Origin: Nocardioides aromaticivorans
GTDB lineage: Bacteria; Actinomycetota; Actinomycetes; Propionibacteriales; Nocardioidaceae
Length of the DNA stretch: 64,000 nt
Direction of reading: 5' to 3'
Assembly (NCBI RefSeq): GCF_013408525.1
Contig: NZ_JACBZM010000001.1
Span: forward strand, 1,798,001 to 1,862,000
Under the pieces are notes generated by a model. It saw only the letters and a program-made list of their open reading frames with translations. It was not told the DNA's origin and ran no database searches. Of this stretch, positions 15,686 to 54,406 are shown piece by piece. Both the position numbers and the translations under genes were made by a program. Positions within the stretch are counted from its first letter, which is position 1, and each line of letters begins with the position of its first letter.

Positions 15686-17635
15686 TCACCAGATGCGGAC
15701 CCGGTCACCCGGCTCGAGCCAGAGGCCGTCGCCGGGCGCGGTGCCGAAGACCTCGTGGAACTCGTCGAGGTTGCGCACGATGTTGGCGCGGAACTCGGGC
15801 GGGCTGTGCGGGTCGATCGTGAGGTACTGCTGCTCCTGCTCGAGGCGCCGCTTGGTCCGCCACACGTAGGCCCAGTTGAAGAAGAGCTTCTCGCGGTCCT
15901 CGACGCTCGCCTCGCCGCCCTGCGCGATGAGGAAGGCGGTGTGGGCGATGGTCAGGCCGCCGAGGTCGCCGATGTTCTCGCCGACGGTGAGCGCGCCGTT
16001 GACCTTCTCGTCGGGCAGGTTGCGCGGCGAGAAGCCGTCGTACTGCTCGACGAGCGCCTTCGACTTCACCTCGAAGGCGGCCTTGTCGTCGGGGGTCCAC
16101 CAGTCGTTGAGGTTGCCCTCGCCGTCGTACTGGGCGCCCTGGTCGTCGAAGCCGTGGCCGACCTCGTGACCGATGACGGCGCCGATGCCGCCGTAGTTCT
16201 CGGCCGGCAGCGCGTCCGGGCTGAAGAACGGCTTCTGCAGGATGCCCGCGGGGAAGCAGATCTCGTTGGTCCCGGGGTTGTAGTAGGCGTTGACCGTCTG
16301 CGGCAGCATGAACCACTCGTCGCGGTCGACCGGCGCGCCGATCTTGGCGAGCTGGCGGTCGGTCTCGAAGCCCGCCGCGGACTGCGCGTTGGCGACCAGG
16401 TCGTCGGGCACGACCACCAGCGCGCTGTAGTCGCGGAAGCGCACCGGGTAGCCGATCTTGGGCCGGAAGGTGTCGAGCTTCTCGTAGGCCCGCTCCTTCG
16501 TCTCCTCGGTCATCCAGTCGAGCTTGCTGATGGACTGGCGGTACGCCGCCAGCAGGTTGGCGACCAGCTCGTCCATCATCGCCTTCGACGACGGCGGGAA
16601 GTGCCGGGCGACGTACTCCTTGCCGACGGCCTCGCCCATCGCGCCCTCGACGAAGGACACCGCGCGCTTCCAGCGCGCCCGCAGCTCGGGCGTGCCGGAC
16701 AGCGTGCGGCCGTAGAAGTCGAAGTTGGTCTGCACGAAGTCGTCGGAGAGGTACGGCGCGGCGGAGCGCAGCACGCGCGAGAGGAACCAGTCGCGCCAGG
16801 CCTCGATCGGCGTGGCCTCGAGGACGCCCGACAGGTGCTGGAGGTACGACGGCTGGCGGACCACGACCTCCGCGATCGTCGCCTGCGGGCCGCTCAGGTG
16901 GCCGCCGAGGTTGGTGATGTAGGCGTCCCAGTCGAAGCCCGGGCACAGCGCCTTGAGCTCGTCGGCGGTCAGCCGGTTGTAGGTCTTCTGGACGTCGCGC
17001 GTCTCGGCCCGCTCCCAGTGGCCCTTGGCGAGGTCGGTGTCGAGCTCGAGGATCCGCTGCGCCGCACCGGCCGGGTCCTCGTGGCCGCCGAGGGTCAGCA
17101 GGCGGGTGAGGTAGGCGACATAGGCGTCGCGGACCTCCGCGAACTTCTCCTCGCGGTAGTAGGACTCGTCCGGCAGCCCCAGGCCGCCCTGGACCACGTG
17201 GAAGAGGTAGCGGTCGGACTGGCGGTCGTCGGTGTCGACGTACGAGCCGAACAGGCCGTAGCCGCCGATCCGCTCGAACTCGCCGAGGAAGGCGGCGACG
17301 TCGCGCACGTCGCGCAGCCCGGCAACGGCGTCGACCAGCGGCTGCGCCGGGGCCAGGCCGGCGGCCTCGACCCGGTCGGTGTCCATGAAGGAGTTGTAGA
17401 GGTCGGCGATCTTGCGGGCGTCCTCGTCACCGTCGCCGGACGCGGCGAGCTCGGTGATGATCGCCCGCACGTCCTCCTCGGCCTGGTCGGCGAGCTGGAC
17501 GAACGGGCCCCAGCTGGACCGGTCCGAGGGGATCTCCGCGTCGCGGAGCCAGGTGCCGTTGACGTGGCCGAACAGGTCGTCCTGCGGGCGGATGGCGGGG
17601 TCCATGCCGGGACGGGCGTCGTCGAGGATGCTCAC
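15686..17635 (-). CDS. M13-family (neprilysin-like) zinc metallopeptidase
   Basis: This 649-residue protein has the M13 zinc site VIGHEVGHGFDDQGAQYD (HExxH) followed by ENIGDLGG (ExxxD), and the substrate-binding NAYYNP motif. The N-terminal M13 domain begins at RPQDDLFGHVNGTWL. There is no signal peptide or transmembrane helix at the chosen GTG start (17635), as in actinobacterial PepO/Zmp1-type proteins, which cleave short peptides. Further in-frame sequence upstream to 17998 looks non-coding (low complexity and across the divergent promoter). The downstream membrane protein follows by 7 bp. Confidence 0.93.
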   Translation of the reverse strand: MSILDDARPGMDPAIRPQDDLFGHVNGTWLRDAEIPSDRSSWGPFVQLADQAEEDVRAIITELAASGDGDEDARKIADLYNSFMDTDRVEAAGLAPAQPLVDAVAGLRDVRDVAAFLGEFERIGGYGLFGSYVDTDDRQSDRYLFHVVQGGLGLPDESYYREEKFAEVRDAYVAYLTRLLTLGGHEDPAGAAQRILELDTDLAKGHWERAETRDVQKTYNRLTADELKALCPGFDWDAYITNLGGHLSGPQATIAEVVVRQPSYLQHLSGVLEATPIEAWRDWFLSRVLRSAAPYLSDDFVQTNFDFYGRTLSGTPELRARWKRAVSFVEGAMGEAVGKEYVARHFPPSSKAMMDELVANLLAAYRQSISKLDWMTEETKERAYEKLDTFRPKIGYPVRFRDYSALVVVPDDLVANAQSAAGFETDRQLAKIGAPVDRDEWFMLPQTVNAYYNPGTNEICFPAGILQKPFFSPDALPAENYGGIGAVIGHEVGHGFDDQGAQYDGEGNLNDWWTPDDKAAFEVKSKALVEQYDGFSPRNLPDEKVNGALTVGENIGDLGGLTIAHTAFLIAQGGEASVEDREKLFFNWAYVWRTKRRLEQEQQYLTIDPHSPPEFRANIVRNLDEFHEVFGTAPGDGLWLEPGDRVRIW

Positions 17636-17789
17636 GGGATCGAGCCTAGGACCCGGGTCAATCACCGGCTCCAGCTGGTCGGCCGGGCTGGTCGGCCGGG
17701 CTGGCCGGTCGGTCGGACACGCCGGGACCTTGGGCCCATTTCCCCGCTCCGCGCTCATCCGGGTACGCCGCCGGGCCGATCCGCCAGCC

Positions 17790-18305
17790 ATGGCAAGACT
17801 CCTGGGGCTGGTGCCCTGCATCGTGCTGGGCCTCGTGCTCGCCGCGCTGCCCGCCCCCTCCGAGGCCGCGTCCACGGCGGGGGTGCAGGACGTCGTACCG
17901 ACGCGGGTGCTGGTGCAGCGGCTGCTCGAGGACCGGGTGCTCGCGCTGACCAACGTCGAGCGCCGCCGCCACGGCTGCCCATCGCTGCGGGCGAACACCT
18001 ACCTGCGCAAGTCGGCGCGGGGCCACACGGTGACCATGGCGCTGCACGACCTGATGTCCCACCAGCTGCCCGGCGAGCCGTACTTCAGCAAGCGGATCAC
18101 GCGCGCCGGCTACCGCAACTGGAGCCTGGTCGCGGAGAACGTCGCCCGCGGCTTCAGCGGTCCCGCGGCCGTGGTCCGGGCATGGATGGCCAGCCCCAGC
18201 CACCGCCGCAACATCCTCAACTGCCGGCTGCGCGACCTGGGCGTCGGCGTGGTCCTCGACGGGGGCCAGCTGTGGTGGACCCAGAACTTCGGACGGAAGT
18301 GGTGA
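17790..18305 (+). CDS. Secreted CAP-domain (SCP/PR1) protein, paralogue 1
   Basis: This 171-residue protein starts with a signal peptide (LLGLVPCIVLGLVLAAL, cleavage near SEA-AS). One CAP domain follows, with LTNVERRRHGCPSL, the SHQLPGE histidine region, AENVARG (CAP glutamate) and ASPSHRRNILN (second histidine). Bacterial CAP proteins are extracellular with mostly unknown activity. It is the first of three tandem paralogues, 145 bp before the next. The upstream 154 bp contain a short tandem run of GCTGGTCGGCCGG. Confidence 0.85.
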   Translation: MARLLGLVPCIVLGLVLAALPAPSEAASTAGVQDVVPTRVLVQRLLEDRVLALTNVERRRHGCPSLRANTYLRKSARGHTVTMALHDLMSHQLPGEPYFSKRITRAGYRNWSLVAENVARGFSGPAAVVRAWMASPSHRRNILNCRLRDLGVGVVLDGGQLWWTQNFGRKW

Positions 18306-18374
18306 GCGTGCACGACACCCCTGCGACCGGATCCGGCCTCGCGACCGCGGACGCGGTCCGGACGCCGCGTAACG

Positions 18375-18392
18375 CTAGTCAGTTCGGACTAG
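18375..18392. promoter_or_regulatory. Inverted repeat upstream of the second CAP gene
   Basis: CTAGTC and GACTAG arms around a 6-nt spacer, about 58 bp upstream of the ATG at 18451. This is AT-richer than its surroundings and could be an operator or promoter element. No regulator is assigned. Confidence 0.35.
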
Positions 18393-18450
18393 TGAATGGC
18401 GGACGGAGCATCGATGTGACGACCTCCCCGACTCACGGACCATCGTTGTC

Positions 18451-18978
18451 ATGAACCGGGGGATTCAGAAGCTCTTCATCGCTGCCATCGTCGTCCTGGC
18501 CGCCGCTGTCGCGGCCAGCGCCACGCCGGCAGCCACGGCCACCACCGTGACGTCCACGCAGCTGCGGGGTGCGTCGCTCACGCTGACGGTCAACAACATC
18601 CTGGAGAACACGGTGGTGGTGCTGACCAACACGCAGCGCGCACTCGCCGGCTGCCGGCCGCTCAAGGTCAACAGCGACCTGCGCCAGGCAGCCCGCACCC
18701 ACTCCAAGAAGATGGCGGCCGCCAGCACCATGTCGCACCAACTCCCCGGCGAGCTGAGCCTGGGCCGCCGGATCACCCAGACCGGGTACGTCGGCTGGAC
18801 CCGCGTCGCCGAGAACATCGCCGCCGGCTACACGACCGCCGGCTCCGTGACCCGCGCCTGGTGGGCGAGCGCCAGCCACAAGCGCAACATCACCGACTGC
18901 ACGCTGCGCGAGGTCGGCGTGGGCGTGGTGTTCAACGGCCTGCGGATGTACTGGACCGTCGACTTCGGCCGCCGCTGA
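18451..18978 (+). CDS. Secreted CAP-domain protein, paralogue 2
   Basis: This 175-residue protein has a signal peptide (KLFIAAIVVLAAAVAASA, cleavage near ATA) and a CAP domain like paralogue 1: LTNTQRALAGCRPL, TMSHQLPGE, AENIAAG and ASASHKRNITD. The key CAP His/Glu/His positions are retained. The closing WTVDFGRR matches its neighbours' WTQNFGRK and WTVDLGRR, which indicates tandem duplication. No function beyond an extracellular location can be deduced. Confidence 0.85.
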   Translation: MNRGIQKLFIAAIVVLAAAVAASATPAATATTVTSTQLRGASLTLTVNNILENTVVVLTNTQRALAGCRPLKVNSDLRQAARTHSKKMAAASTMSHQLPGELSLGRRITQTGYVGWTRVAENIAAGYTTAGSVTRAWWASASHKRNITDCTLREVGVGVVFNGLRMYWTVDFGRR

Positions 18979-19015
18979 CCGAGCGGTCCGTGCCCGGGTG
19001 GTTGACACCGCCACC

Positions 19016-19603
19016 ATGATGAGCCCCGTGCGCCCCACCGCTCTCGGGACCTTGATGAACAAGTCCAAGCTCTCGCACGCTGAGCCCCGATCCCTTGGAC
19101 TTGCTCCTCTCGTGGTCCTGGCCGCCCTGGCCGGCCTGCTCGCCGGCCCCGCCACGCCCTCCGCCGTCGCGTCCGAGGCGACCACCGGCCCCACACCGAC
19201 CCGGTCGACGCTGACGCTGACGATGGAGGGCGACGCCATGAAGGCCATCAACCGGGCCCGGATGCAGTCCGGCTGTCCGACGCTGAAGGTCACCACCGCA
19301 CTACGGGTCTCCGCCCGCCGCCACAGCGCCCGGATGGCCCGCCAGGGCACGTTGAGCCACCGGGTGGCCGGCGAGGCGACGCTGTCGCGCAGGGTGGCCG
19401 ACTCCGGGTACGCCGGCGCGAGCATGCTCGGCGAGGTCATCGCTCTCGGCCCGACCACCGGTTCCGCGGTCGTGCGGATGTGGCTGGCCAGCTCGCTGCA
19501 CCGCGGCATCCTGCTGGACTGCCGCTACCGCGACTTCGGCGCGGGCGTGGTCCGGGGCGGCAACGGCCGCTACTGGTGGACCGTGGACCTCGGCCGGCGC
19601 TGA
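19016..19603 (+). CDS. Secreted CAP-domain protein, divergent paralogue 3
   Basis: This protein of about 195 residues has an extended N-terminus before a hydrophobic signal segment (LVVLAALAGLLAGPA). The CAP domain is recognisable (INRARMQSGCPTL, LSHRVAGE, ASSLHRGILLD) but the usual AEN motif has become GEVIALG and the spacing around it differs, so it is the most divergent of the three. A GTG at 18998 or an ATG at 19052 are alternative starts. It is followed by repeat C and a convergent oxidoreductase gene. Confidence 0.78.
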   Translation: MMSPVRPTALGTLMNKSKLSHAEPRSLGLAPLVVLAALAGLLAGPATPSAVASEATTGPTPTRSTLTLTMEGDAMKAINRARMQSGCPTLKVTTALRVSARRHSARMARQGTLSHRVAGEATLSRRVADSGYAGASMLGEVIALGPTTGSAVVRMWLASSLHRGILLDCRYRDFGAGVVRGGNGRYWWTVDLGRR

Positions 19604-42496: not shown

Positions 42497-43678
42497 ATGG
42501 CAGCAGCCACTGCGACCGCCGTGGGCGGTCAGGTGCGCTCGCGGGCCGTGCGCCGCACCTGCTGGCGCCTCACCGTCCTCCTCGGCCTGTCCTGGGCCGC
42601 GCTGCTCCTCCTCGGCGGCACCGCCCATGCCGCGTGCGACGACGCCACCTGCGAGCAGCCCGCCGCTCCCGCGCAGCCCGGGGCCGAGGTGCCGATGGTC
42701 GGCGAGCTCCTTGCGAACGCCGACGAGCCCACGACACCGCAGCCCCTCCGCCAGGTCGCAGACCTGACCGCCACTGCCCTCGACGGCCTCCGCGGTACGA
42801 CGCCCGCGCACACGCCGGACCCGGCCGCCGCCGTCGACGCCCTGCCCGCCCTCCCGGCCGCAGGGGCCCACACTCCGGCCGCTGCGGCGCCGAGCACCGG
42901 CATCGACGCGGCCGGCCTCCTGACGAACACCGTTCGCGACACCGTCGAGGCCACCGGCGAGAAGCTGACGCTGAAGGACGTTCCCTCGATCCGCGCCACC
43001 GTCACCCCGCTCGTCGACTCCCTCACCCGCCAGGTCGTCGGCACCGCGGACGACGCGGTCGACACCGTCGAGACCCTCGCCGCGCCCCTGCCCCTGGCCG
43101 GCGGGCTGGCGCAGACGCTGCGCACCGCGGTCGGCACGCTCAGCCTGGCCAGCCAGCTCGCCGTCGACGCGACCGATGCGGTGACCGGCTCCGTCGACGA
43201 GGTCGTCGGTACGACGGCCGCCGTCATCGCGCCGGTCGTGGAGCAGGTGACCCACCCGGCCGGCACCGGCGACTCCGCCGGACCGACCACCGGCGCCGGG
43301 CCGGCCCCCTCCGCCGCGGACGCCGCGACGGGTCCCGCCCTCGGCGTGGTGACGGTCCGCCTCGACGCGCCGCACGCGGACCTGGCCTCCGGCACGCGCA
43401 CCCTGTCCGGGCCGGCGGTCCCGCCGCCCGACGCCGTCGCCCTCACGCCCGTGGCGCAGCCCGCAGCGGACACCGTCACCGCCCTCCCGGTTCCGGTGTC
43501 CGGCGCAGGCTTCACCCCCGGCACCGGCGGCGCCGCCTCGGCGCCCCGGCCCGACCACCCGCTGGCGCGGGTCGCACCCGAGCCCCTGGCGGCTCGTCCC
43601 GCGACCGCTCCGGTGGCGTGCCCCGCCGGTCCGATGCCGGGCACCCCGGCCGCCGACCCGGCCTTCTCACCGGACTGA
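42497..43678 (+). CDS. Ala/Pro/Thr-rich secreted protein, first gene of the surface cluster
   Basis: This 393-residue protein has a signal peptide (RLTVLLGLSWAALLLLGGTAHA-AC) right before two cysteines (ACDDATCEQP). The rest is low-complexity, rich in A, T, P and V, with a predicted amphipathic helical section (about 130-260: TNTVRDTVEATGEKL, SLTRQVVGTADDAVDTVETL, LASQLAVDATDAVTGSVDEVV). There is no LPxTG-type tail. GGGAG precedes the ATG at 42497. Its position suggests a partner of the two repeat proteins downstream. No family was recognised. Confidence 0.72.
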   Translation: MAAATATAVGGQVRSRAVRRTCWRLTVLLGLSWAALLLLGGTAHAACDDATCEQPAAPAQPGAEVPMVGELLANADEPTTPQPLRQVADLTATALDGLRGTTPAHTPDPAAAVDALPALPAAGAHTPAAAAPSTGIDAAGLLTNTVRDTVEATGEKLTLKDVPSIRATVTPLVDSLTRQVVGTADDAVDTVETLAAPLPLAGGLAQTLRTAVGTLSLASQLAVDATDAVTGSVDEVVGTTAAVIAPVVEQVTHPAGTGDSAGPTTGAGPAPSAADAATGPALGVVTVRLDAPHADLASGTRTLSGPAVPPPDAVALTPVAQPAADTVTALPVPVSGAGFTPGTGGAASAPRPDHPLARVAPEPLAARPATAPVACPAGPMPGTPAADPAFSPD

Positions 43679-43688
43679 ACCAGGGACG

Positions 43689-43710
43689 CCACGTCCTCTG
43701 AGTGACGTGG
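43689..43710 (+). terminator. Hairpin after the first cluster gene
   Basis: CCACGTC-n8-GACGTGG stem 10 bp after the stop, with no T-tract. It is followed by two GACGTACGG-containing dyads (43720-43736 and 43748-43760) in the 167-bp gap before the next gene. These could be operators of an internal promoter. Confidence 0.4.
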
Positions 43711-43845
43711 CAGCCGGCACCGCCGACGTACGGCGGAGGGCCCACCTCCCGACGTACGGGCCGGCCTTCGAAGGACAACCGCTCTGCTCGCTCGACCGTT
43801 CGCAGTCGCACTTTCTTCGAACTTCCCTGAACCAGGAGAACCAGC

Positions 43846-46797
43846 ATGTCCATGCAACCCCGCGCTTCGCGCAACACGGGCTGGCAGCCCATCGGGCTCG
43901 CCACGCCCCTGGAGCCTGACGCCACCGTCCGCAGCATCGCGGTCGCTCGCGCCAGCCGGTCCGCCCGGACCCTCATCGCCCCCGGTGTCGCGCTCGCCGC
44001 GACCCTCGGCGTCGTCTCGTCGGCCGCCGCTCAGGTCGGTGTGATGCCGACCCCGGGCGCCGACGTCTCGGTCACCTCGACGCCGCACGCGGACGCCGGT
44101 GGCGCCGGTACGACGCCGACCACGACCTCGACCAAGACCTCCACGAAGACCTCCACGAAGACCTCCACGAAGACCTCGACGACACTGTCCGGGTCCGCAC
44201 TCTCGGGCCTGCCGATCGTCGGCGGCTTCCTCGGCACCGACGTCCTCGGCGGAGGGATCTTCACCGGCGGCCTGTTCGGTGGGGAGACCGTCCAGACCTC
44301 GGCGAGCAACGGCTCGACCAGCTCCTCGGGGGGCCACTCCGGCGGCCACACCCAGGGCGGCGACGCCTGCGACTTCTTCCTCGACCACATGTGGAAGAAC
44401 GAGGACGGCATCCCCGTCATCGGCACCAACCAGCACTTCCTGACGTTCCACACCGACCCCGACTACAAGAACCTGATCCTGTCGCTCGCGAGCGGTGCGA
44501 TCGGGAACTCGGAGATGCCGATCATCGACATCTACGGCGGGCCGCTCGGCTGGATCCCGATCTTCAACCCGTCGCACGTCCGCGGCCACGGCACGGACTA
44601 CGTCACGCTGCTCACGGGCTGCGGCGGCATGGGGATCCCGATCGACCCGAAGACCCTCAGCGTCGACCTCGACAAGCTGCCCACGCCGGAGAAGGTGACC
44701 GCCCTCATCCAGGACGGCCTGCCGACCCTGCCGTCGCTGCCGAAGCTGCTCGACCCGAACTACCTCTACGACACCCTCGCGATCACCGAGATCATGAACC
44801 GCCTCGGGCCCGAGACCGTGCTGACGCCGGACGAGTACCTCGCCTTCGCCGGCAACAACTTCGACGCCTTCCGCCTGCTCTGGCAGACGGCGCTCGAGAA
44901 GGTCGGCAGCGGCGATCCCGCCGCCGTCCTCGAGGTCCTGCAGATCACCGACAACATCAAGACCCTCGAGTCGCTCGGACTCCCCGGCCTGCCCGGGAGC
45001 GACTCGCCGAACGGCGACCTCACCGGTGACATCCCGGTCGTCGGCGACCTGCTCGCCGGGGTCATGACCGGAGACGTCGAAGGGGCGCTGCCGACCGGCG
45101 ACCTCACCAGCGGCATCCCGGTCCTGGGCGGCATCCTCGGCGGCGGTACGAAGGCCCCGGCCGGCTCGATCGTCATCGGCGGCAAGACCTACCCGGTCGA
45201 GGGCGACACCGTCACCGTCGACGGGGTCAAGTACGCCGTGCGCGACGGCAAGGTGACCATCGGCGGCAAGACCTACACCGTGACGGTGCCCGACGGCGAC
45301 GACCCGGCGGGATCCCCGACGGCCGGACTGCCGGTCCTGGGCGACCTCCTCGGCGGCGGATCGTCGCCCGTCGCGGGCCTGCCGATCGTCGGCGACCTGC
45401 TGGGCGGATCCCCGTCCGGCGACGAGCCCGGCGACGAGCCCGGTGACGAGCCCGGTGACGAGCCCGGTGACGAGCCCGGTGACGAGCCCGGTGACGAGCC
45501 CGGCGACGAGCCCGGCGACGAGCCCGGCGACGAGCCCGCTGGCGGTCTCCCGATCCTGGGCGACCTCCTCGGCGGCGGTTCCTCGCCCGTTGCGGGCCTG
45601 CCGATCGTCGGCGACCTGCTGGGCGGAGCCCCGTCCGACAACCCCGGCGACAACCCCGGCGACAACCCCGGCGACAACCCCGGCGACAACCCCGGCGACA
45701 ACCCGGGCGACAACCCGGGCGACAACCCGGGCGACAACCCCGGTGACGACGACCCGTCCGACAACCCCGGCGACAACCCCGGTGACGACGACCCGTCCGA
45801 CAACCCCGGCGACAACCCCGGTGACGACGACCCGTCCGACAACCCCGGCGACAACCCCGGCGACGACCCCGGTGACGACGACCCGTCCGACAACCCCGGC
45901 GACAACCCCGGTGGTTCCGGCGGTCACGCGACCGGCACCGTCACCGTGGGCGGCGTGACCTACCAGGTCCGCGGCGGCACCGTGACCATCAACGGCGCCC
46001 AGTACCCGGTCCGCAACGGCACCGTGACCGTCAACGGCGTCGCCTACCCGGTCACGCCGAGGACGCCGGGCAGCCCGCCCGTCGACACCCCGCAGGGCAC
46101 GGTGACGTTCAGCCTCGGCTCGCCCAAGGTGAACGGCCAGAGCTCGCCGAACGCTCCCGGAGCCGTGATCCCGGTGGGCGGGCAGGTGACCTACACGGTC
46201 CCGGTGACCAACACCGGCACCCTCCCGATCACCACGCTGACCGCCAAGGCGTCGGACGGCGGCACGCTGACCGGCGGCCGGCTCCCGCTCCGGCCGGGAC
46301 AGACCACGACGCTCACCTACACGACGACGGCCAAGCCCGGCGCGCAGGCGGTGACCTTCTCGATCGTGGCCTCGAACCCGAACGGGCAGCAGCAGGGCAA
46401 GACGTGCTCGGCGGTCTACACCGGCACCGTCCAGCACGGTCAGCTCGTGTCGACCGACGGCCTGATGGTCGACGGGAAGGCCACCAGTGACGCCGTTCGC
46501 TACACCTTCCACTCGACCGACCCCGCCAAGGTGTCCTTCCAGGTCACCAACTCCGGGGACGCCCCGCTGCGCAACGTCAGCGCGTCGTCGCCGGCCGGCC
46601 AGGTCACCGGGGGCAAGGCCACGCTGCAGCCCGGCGAGTCCGCCTGGTACACGGTCGTCGTCCAGCCGCGGTCCGGCCTGAACTCGGTGCCGGTCAGCTT
46701 CAGCGGCACCGACGCGAGCGGCAAGACCACCACCGTGAAGGAGTCGTTCGACTACACGCTCTGCACCTGCGCGTCGCCGGCGACCCCCGAGGCCTGA
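43846..46797 (+). CDS. Large secreted repeat protein 1 of the surface cluster
   Basis: This 983-residue protein has an unusually long N-region (about 35 residues) before the hydrophobic signal segment (LIAPGVALAATLGVVSSAAA). In order come a TSTKTSTK tract (about 93-110), a unique domain (about 170-390, DACDFFLDHMWKNEDGIPVI, HVRGHGTDYVTLLTGCGG) and repeated GLPVLGDLLGGG-type stretches. Then come ten GDEP units (about 525-564), a GDNP/GDDDPSDNP tract (about 598-690), one three-unit YPV module (GTVTVNGVAYPV, about 694-738) and two DUF11-like beta domains (about 750-980). An earlier, degenerate YPV module lies at about 440-482. There is no sorting signal, so it may be released or held non-covalently. 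AGGAG precedes the ATG. Function unknown. Confidence 0.78.
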   Translation: MSMQPRASRNTGWQPIGLATPLEPDATVRSIAVARASRSARTLIAPGVALAATLGVVSSAAAQVGVMPTPGADVSVTSTPHADAGGAGTTPTTTSTKTSTKTSTKTSTKTSTTLSGSALSGLPIVGGFLGTDVLGGGIFTGGLFGGETVQTSASNGSTSSSGGHSGGHTQGGDACDFFLDHMWKNEDGIPVIGTNQHFLTFHTDPDYKNLILSLASGAIGNSEMPIIDIYGGPLGWIPIFNPSHVRGHGTDYVTLLTGCGGMGIPIDPKTLSVDLDKLPTPEKVTALIQDGLPTLPSLPKLLDPNYLYDTLAITEIMNRLGPETVLTPDEYLAFAGNNFDAFRLLWQTALEKVGSGDPAAVLEVLQITDNIKTLESLGLPGLPGSDSPNGDLTGDIPVVGDLLAGVMTGDVEGALPTGDLTSGIPVLGGILGGGTKAPAGSIVIGGKTYPVEGDTVTVDGVKYAVRDGKVTIGGKTYTVTVPDGDDPAGSPTAGLPVLGDLLGGGSSPVAGLPIVGDLLGGSPSGDEPGDEPGDEPGDEPGDEPGDEPGDEPGDEPGDEPGDEPAGGLPILGDLLGGGSSPVAGLPIVGDLLGGAPSDNPGDNPGDNPGDNPGDNPGDNPGDNPGDNPGDNPGDDDPSDNPGDNPGDDDPSDNPGDNPGDDDPSDNPGDNPGDDPGDDDPSDNPGDNPGGSGGHATGTVTVGGVTYQVRGGTVTINGAQYPVRNGTVTVNGVAYPVTPRTPGSPPVDTPQGTVTFSLGSPKVNGQSSPNAPGAVIPVGGQVTYTVPVTNTGTLPITTLTAKASDGGTLTGGRLPLRPGQTTTLTYTTTAKPGAQAVTFSIVASNPNGQQQGKTCSAVYTGTVQHGQLVSTDGLMVDGKATSDAVRYTFHSTDPAKVSFQVTNSGDAPLRNVSASSPAGQVTGGKATLQPGESAWYTVVVQPRSGLNSVPVSFSGTDASGKTTTVKESFDYTLCTCASPATPEA
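45418..45537 (+). repeat. 12-bp coding microsatellite (ten GDEP units)
   Basis: Ten consecutive 12-bp units GGYGACGAGCCC encode GDEP. Near-identity at DNA level makes copy-number change by slippage likely. Confidence 0.9.
45637..45915 (+). repeat. 12-bp coding repeat tract (GDNP, then GDDDPSDNP blocks)
   Basis: About nine GDNP units are followed by higher-order blocks of GDDDPSDNPGDNP. A flexible acidic spacer in the protein is expected. Confidence 0.85.
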
Positions 46798-46806
46798 GGA
46801 ATGTCG

Positions 46807-49800
46807 ATGACAACGAAACCCTGGATGAGGCGGTCCGTCGTGACCGGCTTGGCCGTGGGAGGGTTTCTCCTCCTCGGCGTGGGCTCCGCCCACGCCGAGG
46901 ACGGGGACAGTCCCACACCGGTCGAGTCGCTCACCGGGACCGTCACCACGCTGCTCGGCGCGGACGGGCCACTCGGAGGAGACACCTCCGGCCACTCCGC
47001 TCCGACGGACCTGCGTCCGACGCACGGGACCCCGGTCTTCCCCGAGACGAATGTCGAGGCGGAGATCGCCGAGCCCGACCCGATGCCCCTGCCGGAGCCG
47101 GTGGAGCTGACGGAGCCGGAGCAGATCTACACGATCCAGCCGGTGGACGAGGCGACTGACGGGAGTGCTCCCTCGGAGAGCACCTCCGACTCCGACCTCG
47201 CCGCCACGTCGGATCCCGCGCCGGCGACCGTCGCCGACACCGCGTCGGAGGCAGCCCCGCGGCCGGCCGACGGCTGCGCGTGCAACCTCACGATGGGTAC
47301 GCCGACCGTCAACGGCCGGACGGCAGGGGCACCGGGCACCGCCCAGGTCCCCGCGGACCGGGCCGCGACGATCGCCGTACCGGTCTCCAACACGGGCAAC
47401 GTCACCGTGACCAACCTGGCCGTCTCCGGCCCGGGCGGGAGGATGACGTGCGGCAGCACCACGCTCGCCGTCGACGCATCGACGACGTGCACCGGGTCGT
47501 GGACGCCGGGTGCCGGCAGCCGGAGCGCCCCGATCCGTGCCACCGCGTCCACGCCCGGGGGCAGGGTGACGGGCTCGGCACTGCTCTTCGCCACCGGTCT
47601 CGCGACCGGCGGTGGCGTGCCGGGCAACCCGGGCAGCGGTACGCCGGACAAGGGTTGCTCCTGCGACCTGACCTCCGGTACCCCCAGCGTCGGCGGCAAG
47701 GCTGCTGGCGGCGCCGGGACCGCAGAGGTGCCGGTGGGTACGACCACCACGGTGTCGATCCCGGTGTCGAACACGGGCACCAGGACCGTGTCGAACCTGT
47801 CGGCCACCAGCCCGGAGGGCCCGCTCACGTGTGCCGACACCGAGCTGGCGCCGACCGAGTCGACGACCTGCTCCCGCCAGGTGCGGGCCGAGACCGGCGA
47901 CCAGGTCGTGCCCATCACCATCTACGGCACGACCTCCGACGGTCGCCGGACGACTGCCCAGGGCATCGCCCACGTGACCGGTGTGCCGGACGATGACGAC
48001 GGATCGGACAACCCGGGAGGATCGGACGACCCGGGCGACACCACCGACGGCACCATCAAGGTCGGCGGCGTCACCTACCCCGTCACCGACGGCACCGTCA
48101 CCATCGGCGGGGTCAAGTACCCGGTCAAGAACGGCACCGTCACCATCGGCGGAGTGGCCTACCCGGTCACCCCGACCCACGGCGGGACCGACAACCCGGG
48201 CGACACCACCGACGGCACCATCAAGGTCGGCGGCGTCACCTACCCCGTCAAGAACGGCACCGTCACCATCGACGGCGTCAGGTACCCCGTCAAGAACGGC
48301 ACCGTCACCATCGGCGGCGTGGCCTACCCGGTCACCCCGACCCACGGCGGGGCCACGGGCACCATCACCGTGAACGGGGTCACGTACCCGGTCACCGACG
48401 GCACCGTCACCATCGGCGGGGTCAGGTACCCCGTCAAGAACGGCACCGTCACCATCGGCGGCGTGGCCTACCCGGTCACCCCGACCCACGGCGGGGCCAC
48501 GGGCACCATCACCGTGAACGGGGTCACGTACCCGGTCACCGACGGCACCGTCACCATCGGCGGGGTCAAGTACCCCGTCAAGAACGGCACCGTCACCATC
48601 GGCGGCGTGGCCTACCCGGTCACCCCCACCCACGGCGGGGCCACGGGCACCATCACCGTCAACGGGGTCACGTACCCGGTCACCGACGGCACCGTCACCA
48701 TCGGCGGGGTCACGTACCCCGTCAAGAACGGCACCGTCACCATCGGCGGCGTGGCCTACCCGGTCACCCCCACCGACGGCGGGACCGACAACCCGGGCGC
48801 CACCACCGACGGCACCATCAAGGTCGGCGGCGTCACCTACCCCGTCAAGAACGGCACCGTCACCGTCAACGGAGTGAAGTACCCCGTCAAGAACGGCACC
48901 GTCACCATCGGCGGCGTGGCCTACCCGGTCACCCCCACCCACGGGACCGACAACCCGGGCGCCACCACCGACGGCACCATCAAGGTCGGCGGCGTCACCT
49001 ACCCCGTCAAGAACGGCACCGTCACCGTCAACGGAGTGAAGTACCCGGTCAAGAACGGCACCGTCACCATCGGCGGCGTGGCCTACCCGGTCACCCCGAC
49101 CCACGGCGGGGCCACGGGCACCATCACCGTGAACGGGGTCACGTACCCGGTCACCGACGGCACCGTCACCATCGGCGGGGTCAACTACCCGGTCAAGAAC
49201 GGCACCGTCACCATCGGCGGAGTGGCCTACCCGGTCACCCCCACCGACGGCGGGACCGACAACCCGGGCGACACCACCAACGGCACCATCAAGGTCGGCG
49301 GCGTCACCTACCCCGTCAAGAACGGCACCGTCACCATCGACGGCGTCAAGTACCCCGTCAAGAACGGCACCGTCACCATCGGCGGCGTGAGCTACCCGGT
49401 CACCACGTCCGGCGGCACCGACGGGTCTGGGGGGCCCGACGGATCCGACGGCCAGGCGAGCGGGAGCATCACCGTTGACGGCGTGACCTACCCGGTCGCG
49501 GACGGCTCGGCCACCGTGGACGGGGTCGCGTACCCCGTGCACGACGGCACCGTGACGATCGACGGCGTGGCCTACCCGGTGACGCCGAGCGACGACGGTT
49601 CGGACGGCCACGGCTCCGACGGTCACGGGTCCGACGACCCCGGTGGGTCGGACGACCCCGGCGGGTCCGGCGACAACGGTCCGTTGGCGATCACCGACCC
49701 GACCGTCAACGGCAAGGCCGCCGACGCCCCCGGGTCACTGGACGCCGAGGCCCACAAGGCGGCGACGGTGGAGTTCGACGTGACCAACACCGGTGACGTG

Positions 49801-50439
49801 GACGTGACCGGGCTGTCCGGCCAGGTCGGCTCCGGCGACATCCGTTGCACGGAGACCGAGCTCGCCCCGGGCGAGTCGACCACCTGCCGTGGGCGGGTCG
49901 TCCCGCGCGTCGGTGCGCAGACCACACCGGTCCAGGTGTCGGCTGCGACCGCCGACGGCGGGAGTACGACGTCGGTCCGGGCGCTCCGGCTCTCGGGTGT
50001 CGCGCCGAGCACCGGCGGCCACGCCGGTGGTCACGCTGGCCCGTCCGGCGGGACGCCCGGCGGCGGAGCATCCGGCGGCATGCCGGGCGCCCACTCCGGC
50101 GGGATGCCCGGCGCCCACTCCGGTGGGATGTCGGGCGGGGTCCCGGCGGCCCACGCCGGCGGCTCGGTGCACTCCGGCACCGGGACGTCCGACGGCGCGA
50201 TCGTCGGCGGCGTACCGGCTCCGGACGGCATGACCGGCCAGGGCCACGGCCACCCGGCCGACGGCGGCTTCCCCATGCCCCGCGGGGGCGTGGAGGCCGG
50301 CGGCGGCGGCACGGCGGCTGAGCTGCCGGTCGTCGGTCACGAGCAGGACGACGAGGGCAACCTCCTCGTCTGGCTGCTCCTCCTCGCAGGCGCTGGTGTC
50401 GTCGTGGCCCAGCGCGTGCGTACCCGCAGCTCGCGCTGA
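46807..50439 (+). CDS. Large secreted repeat protein 2 with C-terminal sorting-type tail
   Basis: This protein of about 1210 residues has a signal peptide (VVTGLAVGGFLLLGVGSAHA-ED) and an acidic stretch. Two DUF11-like domains follow (about 155-265 and 280-395), each opening with a CxC or CNL motif. Ten YPV modules (about 411-928) each hold three 14-residue units such as GTVTIGGVKYPVKN. Then come a third DUF11-like domain (about 958-1070), a GGMPGAHSGG linker, and the tail ELPVVGHE, a hydrophobic helix and QRVRTRSSR. The tail has the layout of a sortase substrate, but LPVVG departs from LPxTG. GAGGA favours the ATG at 46807 over that at 46801. It starts 9 bp after repeat protein 1. Confidence 0.82.
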   Translation: MTTKPWMRRSVVTGLAVGGFLLLGVGSAHAEDGDSPTPVESLTGTVTTLLGADGPLGGDTSGHSAPTDLRPTHGTPVFPETNVEAEIAEPDPMPLPEPVELTEPEQIYTIQPVDEATDGSAPSESTSDSDLAATSDPAPATVADTASEAAPRPADGCACNLTMGTPTVNGRTAGAPGTAQVPADRAATIAVPVSNTGNVTVTNLAVSGPGGRMTCGSTTLAVDASTTCTGSWTPGAGSRSAPIRATASTPGGRVTGSALLFATGLATGGGVPGNPGSGTPDKGCSCDLTSGTPSVGGKAAGGAGTAEVPVGTTTTVSIPVSNTGTRTVSNLSATSPEGPLTCADTELAPTESTTCSRQVRAETGDQVVPITIYGTTSDGRRTTAQGIAHVTGVPDDDDGSDNPGGSDDPGDTTDGTIKVGGVTYPVTDGTVTIGGVKYPVKNGTVTIGGVAYPVTPTHGGTDNPGDTTDGTIKVGGVTYPVKNGTVTIDGVRYPVKNGTVTIGGVAYPVTPTHGGATGTITVNGVTYPVTDGTVTIGGVRYPVKNGTVTIGGVAYPVTPTHGGATGTITVNGVTYPVTDGTVTIGGVKYPVKNGTVTIGGVAYPVTPTHGGATGTITVNGVTYPVTDGTVTIGGVTYPVKNGTVTIGGVAYPVTPTDGGTDNPGATTDGTIKVGGVTYPVKNGTVTVNGVKYPVKNGTVTIGGVAYPVTPTHGTDNPGATTDGTIKVGGVTYPVKNGTVTVNGVKYPVKNGTVTIGGVAYPVTPTHGGATGTITVNGVTYPVTDGTVTIGGVNYPVKNGTVTIGGVAYPVTPTDGGTDNPGDTTNGTIKVGGVTYPVKNGTVTIDGVKYPVKNGTVTIGGVSYPVTTSGGTDGSGGPDGSDGQASGSITVDGVTYPVADGSATVDGVAYPVHDGTVTIDGVAYPVTPSDDGSDGHGSDGHGSDDPGGSDDPGGSGDNGPLAITDPTVNGKAADAPGSLDAEAHKAATVEFDVTNTGDVDVTGLSGQVGSGDIRCTETELAPGESTTCRGRVVPRVGAQTTPVQVSAATADGGSTTSVRALRLSGVAPSTGGHAGGHAGPSGGTPGGGASGGMPGAHSGGMPGAHSGGMSGGVPAAHAGGSVHSGTGTSDGAIVGGVPAPDGMTGQGHGHPADGGFPMPRGGVEAGGGGTAAELPVVGHEQDDEGNLLVWLLLLAGAGVVVAQRVRTRSSR
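48040..49590 (+). repeat. Coding minisatellite: ten blocks of three 42-bp units
   Basis: Blocks of about 140-165 bp encode three units of the form G-T-V/I-x-V/I-x-G-V-x-Y-P-V-x-x. Units 2 and 3 are nearly identical between blocks at DNA level. Linkers alternate between THGGATGTITVN and THGGTDNPGDTTDG types, showing at least two duplication lineages. The tenth block is diverged. Confidence 0.92.
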
Positions 50440-50535: not shown

Positions 50536-52014
50536 ATGACCATCTCCCCCGAGAAGCCCGCGACCCAGGACGCCGAACGGCTCGTCAGCGACGAGCAGCT
50601 CGCCGCCACCAACATCCCGGTCACCCGCACGGCGACGGTGGCGACGATCGGCGGCGGCCTCGGGTCGTTCGCGCTGGTCGACCGCCTCCGGGTCGCCGGC
50701 CTGCCCACCGACGAGATCGTGGTCGTCGGCGACGCCACCTCCCCCGGCGCCGCATTCCTCGCACGCTGTGCAGCCCTCGGCCTCGACGACGACAGCCGCC
50801 TGCGCAGCGAGTCCGCGGCCCGCCTCGACAACCTCTGGGGCTTCCCCGGGTACGCCGGCCACGAGGCCCGTCGTACCCGCAGCCTCCGTCCCCTCGCCCA
50901 GCTCCTCCTCGAGGGCGTGTACGGCGACGGGTACCGCCCGACCGTCGGGATCGTCCGCGACGCGCTGGACCGCGAGGCCCGGCGGATCGGCTGGCGTGCG
51001 ATGACGACGCGCGTCCCGGCGGAGTACCTCTTCAAGCGCAGCGGCGGCGGCTACTTCGTCATCGTCCGCGAGCGCGGCGAGCTCGCGGCGATCCGTTGCG
51101 ACCACGTCCACCTGGCGCTCGGCAGCCCCGGGCCGCGGGTCACGCCCGAGGTCGCGGCGTACCGCGAGCAGTTCCCCGACAGCACCCTCCTGACCACCGC
51201 GTACGACGACAACGACGCCGCGCTCGCGACCGTCGCCCGGCGCGGGGGCGACGTGATCGTCCGGGGCGCCGGCGAGGCCGCGCTGCAGCTGCTCCGACGC
51301 CTGACCGAGGCGCGGGAGCGCCACGGCCGCGACCTCCACGTATGGCACGTCGTGCGCAGCTGGCCGGACGGCTCGAGCGGCCGCGACGAGCGCCTGGGCT
51401 TTCGCCACCAGGCGCTCGACTTCCCGCGCTCGGCGTACACCGGGAGCCTGCGCGACGAGCTGGCCACCCTCGACGAGCCCGCCCGCGGCGCGGCCATCGA
51501 GGAGCTCGGCGCCGCGTCCGTGCGCCCCCACCGCCGCGATCCTCTCGCCGCCGCCCGCGCCGAGGGGTGGTACGACGCCGTGGTCGGCGAGGTCGACCGC
51601 ATCACCGAGCAGGACGGCCGGCTCTCGGCGAGCGTCCGGCTGCAGAACGGCAAGCGGATGACGGTGAACGGGGAGCACTTCTTCGACGCCGTCGGCCTCG
51701 ACACCGACACCGCGGCCCACCCGCTCGTCGCGGACCTCGTCGCCTTCAGCCCGGTCACCACCAACGCCCTCGGCGGCCTGCGGGTCGACGAGCAGTGGGC
51801 GGTCGACGGCGGCGCCAGCGGCGACGGGCGGATGTTCGCGACCGGGAGCACCGCCCGTGGGGCGCTGCTCGGCCCGGTCGACTCGTTCCTGGGGCTGCAG
51901 CAGGCGGCGCTGTCCGTCGCCGACACGCTGGCCGCGGCCGGCGTCGGCGCCCCCCTCACCCCGCTGCGGTCGGCCCGCGGCTGGTTCCAGTGGATCGGAG
52001 GGACGTCGCTGTGA
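50536..52014 (+). CDS. FAD/NAD(P)-binding protein of the surface cluster
   Basis: This 492-residue protein has an N-terminal Rossmann dinucleotide site (TVATIGGGLGSFALVDRLRVAGL, about residues 36-58). A second nucleotide-binding region lies near 237 (VIVRGAGEAALQLLRRL), and a late GRMFATGSTARGALLGPVDSFLGLQQA matches the FAD-binding end of such oxidoreductases. There is no signal peptide, so it is cytosolic. Substrate unknown. Its GTGA overlap with the next gene (pseudo-sortase 1) ties it firmly to the sortase-like genes, which is unusual for a flavin enzyme. Confidence 0.78.
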   Translation: MTISPEKPATQDAERLVSDEQLAATNIPVTRTATVATIGGGLGSFALVDRLRVAGLPTDEIVVVGDATSPGAAFLARCAALGLDDDSRLRSESAARLDNLWGFPGYAGHEARRTRSLRPLAQLLLEGVYGDGYRPTVGIVRDALDREARRIGWRAMTTRVPAEYLFKRSGGGYFVIVRERGELAAIRCDHVHLALGSPGPRVTPEVAAYREQFPDSTLLTTAYDDNDAALATVARRGGDVIVRGAGEAALQLLRRLTEARERHGRDLHVWHVVRSWPDGSSGRDERLGFRHQALDFPRSAYTGSLRDELATLDEPARGAAIEELGAASVRPHRRDPLAAARAEGWYDAVVGEVDRITEQDGRLSASVRLQNGKRMTVNGEHFFDAVGLDTDTAAHPLVADLVAFSPVTTNALGGLRVDEQWAVDGGASGDGRMFATGSTARGALLGPVDSFLGLQQAALSVADTLAAAGVGAPLTPLRSARGWFQWIGGTSL

Positions 52015-53150
52015 CCCCCACCCTCGCCGGACGCCTGCAGACCCGGCTGGCGCTCAGCCTCCTCGTCGGCGTCCCCCTGTCCCTGCTCGCGGCGATCCTG
52101 CTCGGCGCACTGGGGTGGGGGGACGCCCTGCGCGGCCTCGCCGCGATCACGGTCCTCGGCTGCGGCTGGGACGCGCTCTTCCAGGCCGTTCAGGAGCGCC
52201 GTTGGGACCGCGACTGGCCGCGGCTGCTGACGCTCCTGTCGTGGCTCCCCGAGGCCGCCGGGTCGTGGCTGGTGCTCCGGGCGTTCGACGCCGCGGCGCC
52301 GCCGGGCACCCACCTGGCCTTCTTCACGCTGGTGTGGGGCGGGATGCTCGCGGCCCGCGCGGCCGTGCTGCCCGTCCTGCTGCCCCGGTGGCGGCACCAG
52401 GGCCAGCGCCTGGCCGGTGCCCTGCCCCTTGCCCGACCGGCCGCCGCGTCGACGCCCGAGCCGGCCAGCCAGCCGGCGCGGACCAGGCTGTCGATCGGCA
52501 CCACCTTCCCCGGCCTGCGCCCGGGCCACCGGCAGCTCGCGATGCTCGCGCTGTTCGTCGGCGTCGTCGGCTCGATCGTCTTCCTCGCGCCGCTCTTCGA
52601 CCGCGAGCCGACGACCTCGGCGGCCAGCGACACCGGGCCGGGCGGCCCCGGCGGCGGGGACGCGATGTCCGCGGACATGGCGCACCACGGCGCCGACGAC
52701 CGCACGTGGAACACCCACCACCGCGTCCGTCCGACGTCGATCGAGTTCCCCGCCGCCCACCTGTCCGCGTCGCTGGCGAAGGTCCGCCAGGACGCCTCGG
52801 GCGTGCTGGTCGCGCCGGATCCAGCGAAGCCCGCCTGGTTCAGCCGGGGCGCCGCTCCGGGGCAGGCGGGTCCGGCCGTGCTCATCGGCTCCGTCGACGG
52901 GGCGTTCGCCGGTCTCGAGAAGGCCGCTCCCGGCCAGTCGCTCCGGATCGTCCGCGCCGACGGCAGCCAGGTCTTCTTCACCGTCGACCGCGTCGCCGAG
53001 GTGGACGCCCGCTCCTTCCCGACCCGGAAGGTGTACGGCGCCGCCGAGGACCCGCTGCTGCGGCTGGTCGGCTACGACGACTCGTCCGGCCGCAACACCA
53101 TCGTCTTCGCCCGCGCGGTGATGATGGTGCAGGCGCCGGCCAAGGGCTGA
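52011..53150 (+). CDS. Polytopic membrane protein with catalytically degenerate sortase domain (pseudo-sortase 1)
   Basis: This 379-residue protein has about five hydrophobic helices in residues 12-195. An extracytoplasmic region then aligns with the class F sortase two genes on: AVLIGSVDG against SVLAGHVDS, FTVDRVAEVDARSFPTRKVYGA against FTVDRVDVVTKSAFPTRRVYGA, and LLRLVGYDDSSGRNTIVFA against ELRLITCGG...NVVVFA. At the two catalytic positions it has Ser294 (for His) and Tyr355 (for Cys), so transpeptidation is not expected. The GTG at 52011 overlaps the FAD gene stop. A scaffold, receptor or regulator of the active sortase is a reasonable guess. Confidence 0.75.
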   Translation: MTPTLAGRLQTRLALSLLVGVPLSLLAAILLGALGWGDALRGLAAITVLGCGWDALFQAVQERRWDRDWPRLLTLLSWLPEAAGSWLVLRAFDAAAPPGTHLAFFTLVWGGMLAARAAVLPVLLPRWRHQGQRLAGALPLARPAAASTPEPASQPARTRLSIGTTFPGLRPGHRQLAMLALFVGVVGSIVFLAPLFDREPTTSAASDTGPGGPGGGDAMSADMAHHGADDRTWNTHHRVRPTSIEFPAAHLSASLAKVRQDASGVLVAPDPAKPAWFSRGAAPGQAGPAVLIGSVDGAFAGLEKAAPGQSLRIVRADGSQVFFTVDRVAEVDARSFPTRKVYGAAEDPLLRLVGYDDSSGRNTIVFARAVMMVQAPAKG

Positions 53151-53151
53151 C

Positions 53152-53790
53152 ATGGGCGCCCGGCGTACCCTTCCGCGGCCCCGGGTCGGGCGGCGCGCCG
53201 CCGTGCTCGCGTCGGGGGTCGCGCTGGGGCTCGCCCTCCTCGCGCTGACGGACGACGACGCGACGACGGCGGACCGCCCGGGCACGGTCGTGGCGGAGCA
53301 GCCCGCCCCCGCCCCGCAAGCGACGGCGGGGCGTCGGCCCGTGCGCTTGCGGGTCCCCCGGATCGGTATCGACACCGGCCTCCTGCGGCTCGGGCTCACG
53401 GCCCGCCGCGAGCTCGAGGTGCCACCCATGCGGAAGGCCGACACCGCGGGTTGGTACGACCGCTCCCCCGTTCCCGGCGACGCCGGGCCCTCGGTCCTGG
53501 CCGGGCACGTCGACTCCCGCTCGGGGCCGGCCGTCTTCTACCGGTTGCGCGAGCTGCGCCGCGGCGACCGGGTCGTGGTCGACCGCGACGACGGCCGGCG
53601 CGCGACCTTCACCGTCGACCGGGTCGACGTGGTGACCAAGTCCGCCTTCCCCACCCGCCGCGTGTACGGCGCCACGACCCGCCCCGAGCTCCGGCTGATC
53701 ACCTGCGGCGGCACCTTCGACCACGCCACCGACGACTACCTCTCCAATGTCGTCGTCTTCGCCCACCTCACCCACCTCACGACCGCCTGA
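53152..53790 (+). CDS. Class F sortase (catalytic residues present)
   Basis: This 212-residue protein has an N-terminal signal/anchor helix (AAVLASGVALGLALLAL), then a sortase beta-barrel with LRVPRIGIDTGLLRLG, LAGHVDS (His119) and LRLITCGGTFD (Cys185), the class F layout in actinobacteria. It would cut a sorting motif and attach the protein to the wall or to another acceptor. It is the only one of three neighbouring sortase-fold proteins with both residues. I cannot place the catalytic arginine with certainty. It lies 1 bp after pseudo-sortase 1. Repeat protein 2 is the only candidate substrate seen in the cluster. Confidence 0.9.
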   Translation: MGARRTLPRPRVGRRAAVLASGVALGLALLALTDDDATTADRPGTVVAEQPAPAPQATAGRRPVRLRVPRIGIDTGLLRLGLTARRELEVPPMRKADTAGWYDRSPVPGDAGPSVLAGHVDSRSGPAVFYRLRELRRGDRVVVDRDDGRRATFTVDRVDVVTKSAFPTRRVYGATTRPELRLITCGGTFDHATDDYLSNVVVFAHLTHLTTA

Positions 53791-53803
53791 ACCGGAGGGC
53801 CCC

Positions 53804-54406
53804 ATGACCAGCACGTCCACCGTCAGCCGCCAGCGACGCGTCGTCGTCGCGGGCTTCGCCGCCTGCCTGGTCCTCGGCGTCGGCGCCGTCGCGTTCGGAG
53901 GCGGTACGACGGCCTCCCCGGAGCCCGAGTCCGCGCCGACGACCGGGGCCACCGCCGCCACGCTGCCCGCGTCGCGCCCGGTGCGGATCCACATCGACCG
54001 GCTCGACGTCACCGCGAAGGTGCGCGTGCTGCGGGCCGCTGACGACGGCGCGACGCTCGCCCTGCCGCCGCTGCGCGCCACCGGCTGGGACGCCACGTCG
54101 GCGACGCCCGGCGAGGCCGGCATCACCGTGGTGACGGGCTACATCGCCCGCACCACCCGTGAGCCGGGCGTGCTGAAGGGGCTGGCCCGGCTGCGCGAGG
54201 GCGACGTGGTGACCCTGCGCCGCAAGGACGGCCGGAGCGTCGACTACCGGGTCACCGGCATCGCCTACTACCCCCAGGGCCGGTTCCCCGCGAAGCACGT
54301 GTTCTCCCGGACCACCCGCCCCGAGCTGCGCCTGATCAGCACCGGCGGCCCGCTGCACCGCGGCGACCCGCTCGGCAACGCGGTCGTCACGGCGGTCGCC
54401 GACTGA
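53804..54406 (+). CDS. Catalytically degenerate sortase-fold protein (pseudo-sortase 2)
   Basis: This 200-residue protein has an N-terminal helix (VVVAGFAACLVLGVGAVAFGG) and a sortase-like domain collinear with the class F enzyme before it: IHIDRLDVTAKV, VVTGYIARTTREPGVL, FPAKHVFSRTTRPELRLISTGGPL. The catalytic His is replaced by Tyr113 and the Cys by Thr180. Overall similarity to the active sortase is clear, so this is a duplicate that lost the active site rather than an unrelated protein. GGAGG precedes the ATG. It is the last gene of the cluster, with a convergent MerR gene following. Confidence 0.82.
   Translation: MTSTSTVSRQRRVVVAGFAACLVLGVGAVAFGGGTTASPEPESAPTTGATAATLPASRPVRIHIDRLDVTAKVRVLRAADDGATLALPPLRATGWDATSATPGEAGITVVTGYIARTTREPGVLKGLARLREGDVVTLRRKDGRSVDYRVTGIAYYPQGRFPAKHVFSRTTRPELRLISTGGPLHRGDPLGNAVVTAVAD

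Follow-up and report, generated by a model that had tools for sequence, protein, structure and literature searches.

The window analyzed here, a stretch of 64,000 nucleotides from the genome of Nocardioides aromaticivorans (contig NZ_JACBZM010000001.1, positions 1,798,001 to 1,862,000, forward strand), encodes three consecutive sortase-related proteins, referred to as P1, P2 and P3. They follow the genes of a putative surface protein (SURF) and of a flavin adenine dinucleotide (FAD)/NAD(P)-binding-type protein, the latter called the FAD gene below (Table 1). The genes are tightly packed: P1 begins with a GTG and shares four bases (52011 to 52014) with the 3' end of the FAD gene, P1 ends at 53150 with P2 starting at 53152, and P2 ends at 53790 with P3 starting at 53804. 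The start of P3 was assigned to the ATG that follows a GGAGG and yields 200 residues as in the homologues, correcting the mechanical start at 53747.

Table 1. Features of the sortase locus, in window coordinates
Feature	Position	Strand	Description and basis
P1	52011..53150	+	Membrane module (about 1-200) and pseudo-sortase domain (about 229-379); Pfam, NCBIfam and profile matches
P1 Ser294 (for His)	52890-52892	+	Substituted position
P1 Tyr355 (for Cys)	53073-53075	+	Substituted position
P2	53152..53790	+	Class F sortase, N-terminal hydrophobic helix 16-34; Pfam and NCBIfam
P2 His119	53506-53508	+	Catalytic-type residue
P2 Cys185	53704-53706	+	Catalytic-type residue
P3	53804..54406	+	Membrane-anchored pseudo-sortase, 200 aa, hydrophobic helix 13-31; Pfam, profiles and homologues
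P3 Tyr113 (for His)	54140-54142	+	Substituted position
P3 Thr180 (for Cys)	54341-54343	+	Substituted position
SURF	46801..50439	+	Putative surface protein, 1212 aa; hydrophobic stretch near the N-terminus (12-30), long repeat region, then box, helix and Arg tail at the C-terminus
SURF sorting box PRGGVEAGGGG	50278..50310	+	Residues 1160-1170, before helix 1188-1206 and tail RTRSSR
FAD gene	50536..52014	+	FAD/NAD(P)-binding-type protein, 492 aa; Rossmann-like start, assigned by eye
Upstream large protein	43846..46797	+	983 aa, with a single hydrophobic stretch (43-61)

All three proteins scored above the cut-off of the Pfam Sortase family PF04203 (26.6 bits), with 28.4 bits for P1, 92.9 for P2 and 48.5 for P3. 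The NCBIfam class F sortase model NF033748 was the top model for each (92.8, 210.1 and 108.6 bits, respectively), its cut-off of 166 bits being passed by P2 only. When compared by hhalign with a profile built from 18 intact class F sequences, P3 gave an E-value of 1.6e-34 and P1 of 1e-32. These results uphold the proposal of three consecutive sortase-related proteins made in an earlier sequence-only reading of the window, and homology supports a predicted sortase fold for P1 and P3. The substrate-like genes at 43846-50439, the FAD gene, the kinship between the membrane part of P1 and a family of stand-alone proteins, and the sorting box had gone unremarked in that reading. Searches against solved structures returned no match for P2 alone or for the P1 profile and chance matches only for the P3 profile; the intact class F profile (18 sequences) retrieved class C and other sortases, with a best E-value of 2.9e-4.

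Catalytic residues and sequence constraint

Within the trio, the catalytic-type His and Cys are present in P2 alone, and the residues listed in Table 1 for the three proteins are those that the sequence-only reading had named. That reading treated P1 as a case of two substitutions; the residues stood, but the change proved to be larger, with the CGG loop and about five residues past the His position missing as well.

The P1 search covered 5.8 billion proteins, of which the best 8000 candidates were scored, and returned at least 35 matches: 32 with a dead domain (P0001-P0032, P0001 being the window's own P1 entry), two with the membrane part only and one ordinary sortase (P0034). The P3 search returned 39 matches, 38 of the P3 type and one ordinary sortase (P0074). 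When the proteins are placed on a single class F model, the pair of His and Cys positions reads Ser/gap in 29, Asp/gap in two and Ala/Phe in one of the 32 P1-type proteins, and Tyr/Thr in 25, Phe/Thr in eight, Phe/Leu in four and Phe/Val in one of the 38 P3-type proteins. Neither residue is kept in any of them (32/32 and 38/38, 70/70 combined), so the catalytic losses are old. Ser thus stands at the His site in 29/32 P1-type and Thr at the Cys site in 33/38 P3-type proteins.

This recurrent Thr, along with the two glycines that follow the Cys position in all 17 P3-clade rows, speaks for P3 or P1 still being an enzyme that works through other residues, with Thr180 serving as the nucleophile, for example, or a Tyr as the base. 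However, the Thr gives way to Leu in four and to Val in one of the 38 P3 homologues and the Tyr to Phe in 13, the wider P3 clade also has Gly and Ala at the Cys site, and in P1 the loop itself is gone; we consider such residual chemistry highly improbable.

Non-synonymous divergence (pN) was calculated over the sortase domain between the window and genomes G171, G103 and G137, in this order. The values are 0.14, 0.16 and 0.25 for P3 and 0.14, 0.17 and 0.19 for P2, and the divergence of P3 between orthologues is thus close to that of P2. The ratio of non-synonymous to synonymous rates (dN/dS) was set aside because third-position guanine-cytosine content near 0.95 distorts dS. Neutral decay of duplicated sortases might be argued from a 49-residue P3 fragment in genome G120, which shows that the locus can decay, and from the databases, whose proteins are whole frames by construction, leaving broken copies unlisted. 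Against this stand the same kind of loss in 70/70 proteins with whole frames and the similar pN of P3 and P2. Neutral decay is barely credible on these figures, and the selected non-enzymatic roles suggested in the sequence-only reading are well supported by them.

Column conservation was judged at a threshold of at least 75% in a reference set of 46 His/Cys rows, picked for having His and Cys. Of the 47 conserved columns, the P3 clade (17 rows) retains 32 and the P1 group (12 rows) 30, a column being counted as retained when at least half of the rows keep it. Around His119 and Cys185, at positions 119-126 or 184-187, lie five of the 15 columns lost in P3 and eight of the 17 lost in P1. Tyr196 is lost in every row of both groups (17/17 and 12/12), and Asn199, invariant in the reference set, is kept in 16/17 P3-clade and 12/12 P1 rows. 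By these counts P1 and P3 retain much of the conserved class F sequence, with the chemistry predicted to be lost.

A broader search, made with an alignment of 12 dead-type rows, gave 124 proteins. Among the 120 matches listed, 87 were new (P0075-P0161), with the pair His/Cys in 82, His/Tyr in one, Tyr/Cys in two, Tyr/Gly in one and Tyr/Thr in one. The two Tyr/Cys proteins, P0077 and P0078, belong to the P3 clade, have Tyr in place of His with the Cys kept, and are possible intermediates. Since they branch early in this clade (forks 92/82 and 89/70, not starred), the His was probably lost first, with Tyr replacing it before the loss of Cys. The tree was built from 142 columns and 75 rows and has a weak backbone; it unites the P3-type proteins and the membrane-fused domain of genome G340 in one group of 17 rows (100/100), the P1 proteins in a group of twelve rows (98/94) and the four P2 proteins of the trio loci in another (100/98). 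Activity may have disappeared separately in the P1 and P3 types, and fusion of the membrane module to a dead sortase may have happened on two occasions; in approximately unbiased (AU) tests, neither a single origin of all dead domains (p-AU 0.44) nor a placement of the G340 fusion in the P1 group (p-AU 0.118) was rejected.

Searched across the phylum, the dead-type profile matched 130 of 396 genomes; the 29 rows from the 29 foreign top loci all carry His and Cys, and these loci thus gave no example of a dead type beyond the family. A class F-like sortase of Streptomyces toyocaensis (L137, 9716-10411) has Trp at the His position and keeps the Cys.

Gene order, membrane module and sorting box

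P1 proteins with both membrane and sortase parts were found in six of 196 genomes of the genus (the window's own, G103, G137, G171, G011 and G015; up to ten candidates were scored per genome). P3-type proteins occur in at least seven of 341 genomes of the family (the window's own, G171, G103, G137, G151, G186 and G340), a minimum since proteins were read from 30 loci. The order FAD-P1-P2-P3, for which the trio's recurrence in other actinobacteria had been put forward as a check, was detected in three further genomes of the genus, G103, G137 and G171 (loci L070-L072, order of pairing not implied). These loci and the window share the extended order SURF-FAD-P1-P2-P3, L071 showing the end of SURF only, at a contig start, and among the trio loci read none has all three sortase-related proteins intact. 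In a genome of another genus (G340, locus L168), all parts lie within one 13-kb stretch, which holds SURF, a P3-type protein (Tyr, Gly) and an intact P2-type sortase in that order, along with a relative of the 983-residue protein, an MFS-like gene (by eye), an FAD gene and a fusion of the membrane module with a dead domain (Ser, Ala).

That fusion lies some 10 kb from the intact sortase, P1 and P3 each occur without the other, and the active-site loops of P1 are deleted, so that its surface is remodelled. These features would suit a role of P1 and P3 apart from P2, namely the binding of wall precursors or sorting signals in a receptor or wall-anchor use of the fold. Yet an intact class F sortase is present in the same stretch as P1 or P3 in all eight foreign loci that were read together with their flanks (L070-L074, L080, L081 and L168) and directly adjoins them in the first seven, and we regard a P2-independent role as quite unlikely.

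In the databases, 14 of the 32 P1 clusters and 14 of the 38 P3 clusters pair up by having a longest contig of identical length, N. maradonensis among them, and paired clusters probably share one contig. A scan of named genomes with the single P1 protein gave no match; with an alignment, it gave 50 loci, comprising four Nocardioides loci with P1 including its sortase domain, 45 with the membrane module alone and, in Streptomyces, a single locus with just the sortase part. The P3 remnant of G120 is 80% identical and is located at 7407-7553 on the minus strand of locus L079 (G120:C1:1730000-1746000). This 16-kb stretch gave no match to FAD, P1 or SURF, P2 matched only the remnant site, and the P1-P2-P3 locus seems to have decayed in this genome.

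The first 130-170 residues of P1 match stand-alone small membrane proteins found in many Nocardioides, other actinobacteria, Acidimicrobiia and two proteobacteria. Because its N-terminal part is akin to these proteins, P1 looks like a stand-alone membrane module to which a dead sortase was added. A hydropathy scan at one threshold placed three helices in P1, at 13-31, 102-120 and 178-196, the true number of which may differ; the last precedes the sortase domain and would fit an outside location of that domain. A relative of the FAD gene was picked out beside the stand-alone module in 11 of 13 loci examined, and a Pfam scan of the FAD protein at E-values up to 1 matched no family. A widespread stand-alone pair consists of the FAD gene and the gene of a small MTPTLAGRLQTR membrane protein (L078, L075-L086, L097, L123); it also occurs in one Rhodobacterales genome. 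By eye, kinase-, vWA- and FHA-like genes lie near this pair in several Nocardioides loci, among them that of the window's genome (L078).

The C-terminus of SURF has the layout of a sortase substrate, in which a box is followed by a helix and a basic tail, and contains no canonical LPXTG-type pentapeptide. SURF relatives of the three other trio genomes read PLGGVGTG, PLGGVGTG and PRGGVGTG at the box, and near ordinary class F sortases the same position reads PxGGVDTG, PxGHPxTG and similar. The motif LPVVG was rejected as the sorting signal of SURF: it lies after the box and is absent from the three trio relatives read, in which the GGV box is shared.

The box was defined as P-x-G-x-x-x-[TA]-G followed by a helix and a tail, in a frame within 2.5 kb. 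A box frame was present near 36 of 64 distinct His/Cys domains (matches of the P2 model), compared with one of 1608 control frames, or one of 40 when only control frames ending in a helix and basic residues were counted; the controls are unvetted frames from loci that had been retrieved by the membrane module, two of these loci also having a sortase. Many loci reach 1.5 kb on each side only, and the trio SURF genes, lying further off, were counted as misses. Among the loci that have the box and no dead partner, the last Gly is preceded by Thr in 33 and by Ala in one. At the dead-partner loci the preceding residue is Thr in three (G103, G137 and G171) and Ala in five (the window, G186, G151, G340 and G015), giving Ala in 5/8 versus 1/34 loci (Fisher p 0.0004, uncorrected for kinship). 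A second intact class F sortase of G151 (L233, G151:C22:105500-114500) lies beside a frame ending PRGGVDTGGGGLASH, with no helix after the box.

Possible roles of the inactive domains

The interpretation that we prefer, with about equal chances of being right or wrong, is that P2 would be a dedicated transpeptidase for SURF, with P3 and the FAD-linked P1 as its non-catalytic partners. The locus would then constitute a dedicated cell-surface anchoring module, in which P2 cuts SURF within the C-terminal box, probably at the Ala-Gly bond between PRGGVEA and G, and joins it to the wall. P3, with its one-helix anchor, would most likely be an adaptor or activating subunit holding the sorting signal or P2. 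The simplest relatives have the arrangement SURF-P3-P2, which suggests a role of P3 in the reaction of P2 with SURF; having kept many conserved columns and the two glycines behind the Cys position, P3 may still bind the sorting signal. P1 is more likely a partner or tether, because the His-side and CGG loops are lost; with its dead domain carried by a membrane module whose counterpart is a cytoplasmic FAD-type protein, it would most likely couple the complex to the FAD-linked module, the least certain step of the scheme. The homology, residue loss, conservation, shared gene order and box come from calculation, whereas we infer complex formation, the cleavage site and the direction of regulation. 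More tentatively, and on the doubtful side in our judgement, the locus could encode a hetero-oligomeric sortase, in which the two pseudo-sortases, one of them FAD-linked, would act as recognition and control parts adapted to a sorting signal with Ala in place of Thr.

Several observations weigh against these assignments. P2 has Leu-Ser-Asn at residues 197-199, where the catalytic Arg is expected, so it counts as a presumptive enzyme; with the Arg column placed by eye, Arg occurs at 197 in four and Asn199 in all of the 46 His/Cys rows. P3 is absent from the FAD-P1-P2 loci of G011 and G015 (L073, L074), and P1 and the FAD gene are absent from the SURF-P3-P2 loci of G151 and G186 (L080, L081, on contigs of 12 and 14 kb). 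Neither P1 nor P3 is thus strictly required, and the full trio is not the smallest set, as P3 with P2 and P1 with P2 also occur alone. Class F sortases usually work without a dead partner, since 56 of the 64 distinct His/Cys domains in the fetched loci, many of them short, have none; 22 of these 56 show no box gene in reach. The P1 domain diverges faster than P2, with a pN of 0.20, 0.30 and 0.32 against G171, G103 and G137. Finally, the box motif was defined on the same data in which it was counted, and the counts are support and not an independent test.

The same conservation and gene order would also fit P1 and P3 as negative regulators, which, bound to P2 or to the sorting signal, would restrain anchoring until released by a signal, for example via the FAD module. 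The tie of P1 to the FAD-type protein, and the stand-alone relatives beside kinase-, vWA- and FHA-like genes, point in this direction. An inhibitor gene could lie between substrate and sortase, as P3 does in L080, L081 and L168, yet an adaptor gene is at least as much to be expected there. We judge negative regulation to be unlikely, and an adaptor or activator role is weakly favoured over that of an inhibitor.

Relation to known systems and other features

Sortases are usually treated as lone enzymes, and the first paper on class F sortases is said to be that of Di Girolamo in 2019. If the proposed partnership is true, a conserved dead pair around a live sortase would add subunit control to the family, and the dead/live set would offer a natural test of substrate choice separated from chemistry. 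As the sequence-only reading had supposed, no described system of this arrangement, nor any report of a pseudo-sortase, was found in the literature searched, which covers few subscription papers. Two wording matches for pseudo-sortase were discarded; the excerpts available deal with a cleavage motif that is degenerate and with a mutated srtC. What is new here would be a variant of a sortase system and no separate category.

Score and His/Cys make P2 a member of the NF033748 class F sortases, to which P1 and P3 are related; these two differ in lacking the catalytic residues and scoring below the cut-off, and P1 also in its fusion to a membrane module. According to the accessible part of PMC13251363, it is not known what class F sortases do physiologically, and a quadruple deletion of the four class F genes of Actinoplanes caused no phenotypic change. 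Two of these Actinoplanes missouriensis sortases (SrtF1-4) have neighbours, AMIS_11010 and AMIS_36440, that are secreted and end in a helix and a basic tail, as SURF does, and no dead sortase is mentioned in that part of the source. The two neighbours, having no recognised pentapeptide, were set aside there (PMC13251363). The box P-x-G-x-x-x-[TA]-G provides a concrete candidate sorting signal for class F sortases and might explain why these proteins were passed over for want of a known pentapeptide.

The class E sortase SrtE1 of Streptomyces coelicolor is likewise actinobacterial and has a sorting signal of its own, LAXTG, but it is an active enzyme of another class, and the text available from PMC5148588 mentions no pseudo-sortase partner; the triads given there are His120-Cys184-Arg197 for Staphylococcus aureus SrtA and His251-Cys320-Arg329 for SrtE1. 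A parallel is offered by prozymes, dead paralogues that activate a live partner, described for AdoMetDC and deoxyhypusine synthase of trypanosomes in the available portions of PMC6221367, PMC5201418 and PMC3663545. As in these cases, inactive paralogues are conserved beside an active one at the present locus. In contrast, the prozymes are unrelated enzymes of unrelated organisms, and their activating effect was measured.

Two further sortase-fold proteins of the window's genome, L005 (G000:C1:4257953-4259002) and L007 (G000:C1:979190-980218), are nearest to class E and score below the cut-off of that class. In these proteins, which have C-terminal hydrophobic stretches, Arg replaces His, and Ser or Ala replaces Cys. 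The change is common to the nine distinct proteins of this type read (two from this genome and seven from others), and their neighbours include phosphate-transport-like genes, as judged by eye. With P1 and P3, four of the nine sortase matches of the genome lack both residues.

Upstream of SURF, at a distance of three bases, lies the gene of the 983-residue protein, which contains Ig-like/CARDB-like and GTVTVNGVxYPV-type repeats and in whose sequence no C-terminal anchor was seen. Relatives of this protein are encoded 5' of SURF in L070 and L072, and another in L168. An antisense open frame of 2365 residues, at 42529-49626 of the window on the minus strand, lies opposite the genes of the 983-residue protein and SURF and is most likely an artefact of GC-rich repeats. 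Elsewhere in the window, at 17412-19603 on the plus strand, three tandem frames, which we take to be CAP/SCP-like, carry the similar end motifs SPSHRRNILNCRLRDLGVGV, KRNITDCTLREVGVGV and LHRGILLDCRYRDFGAGV.

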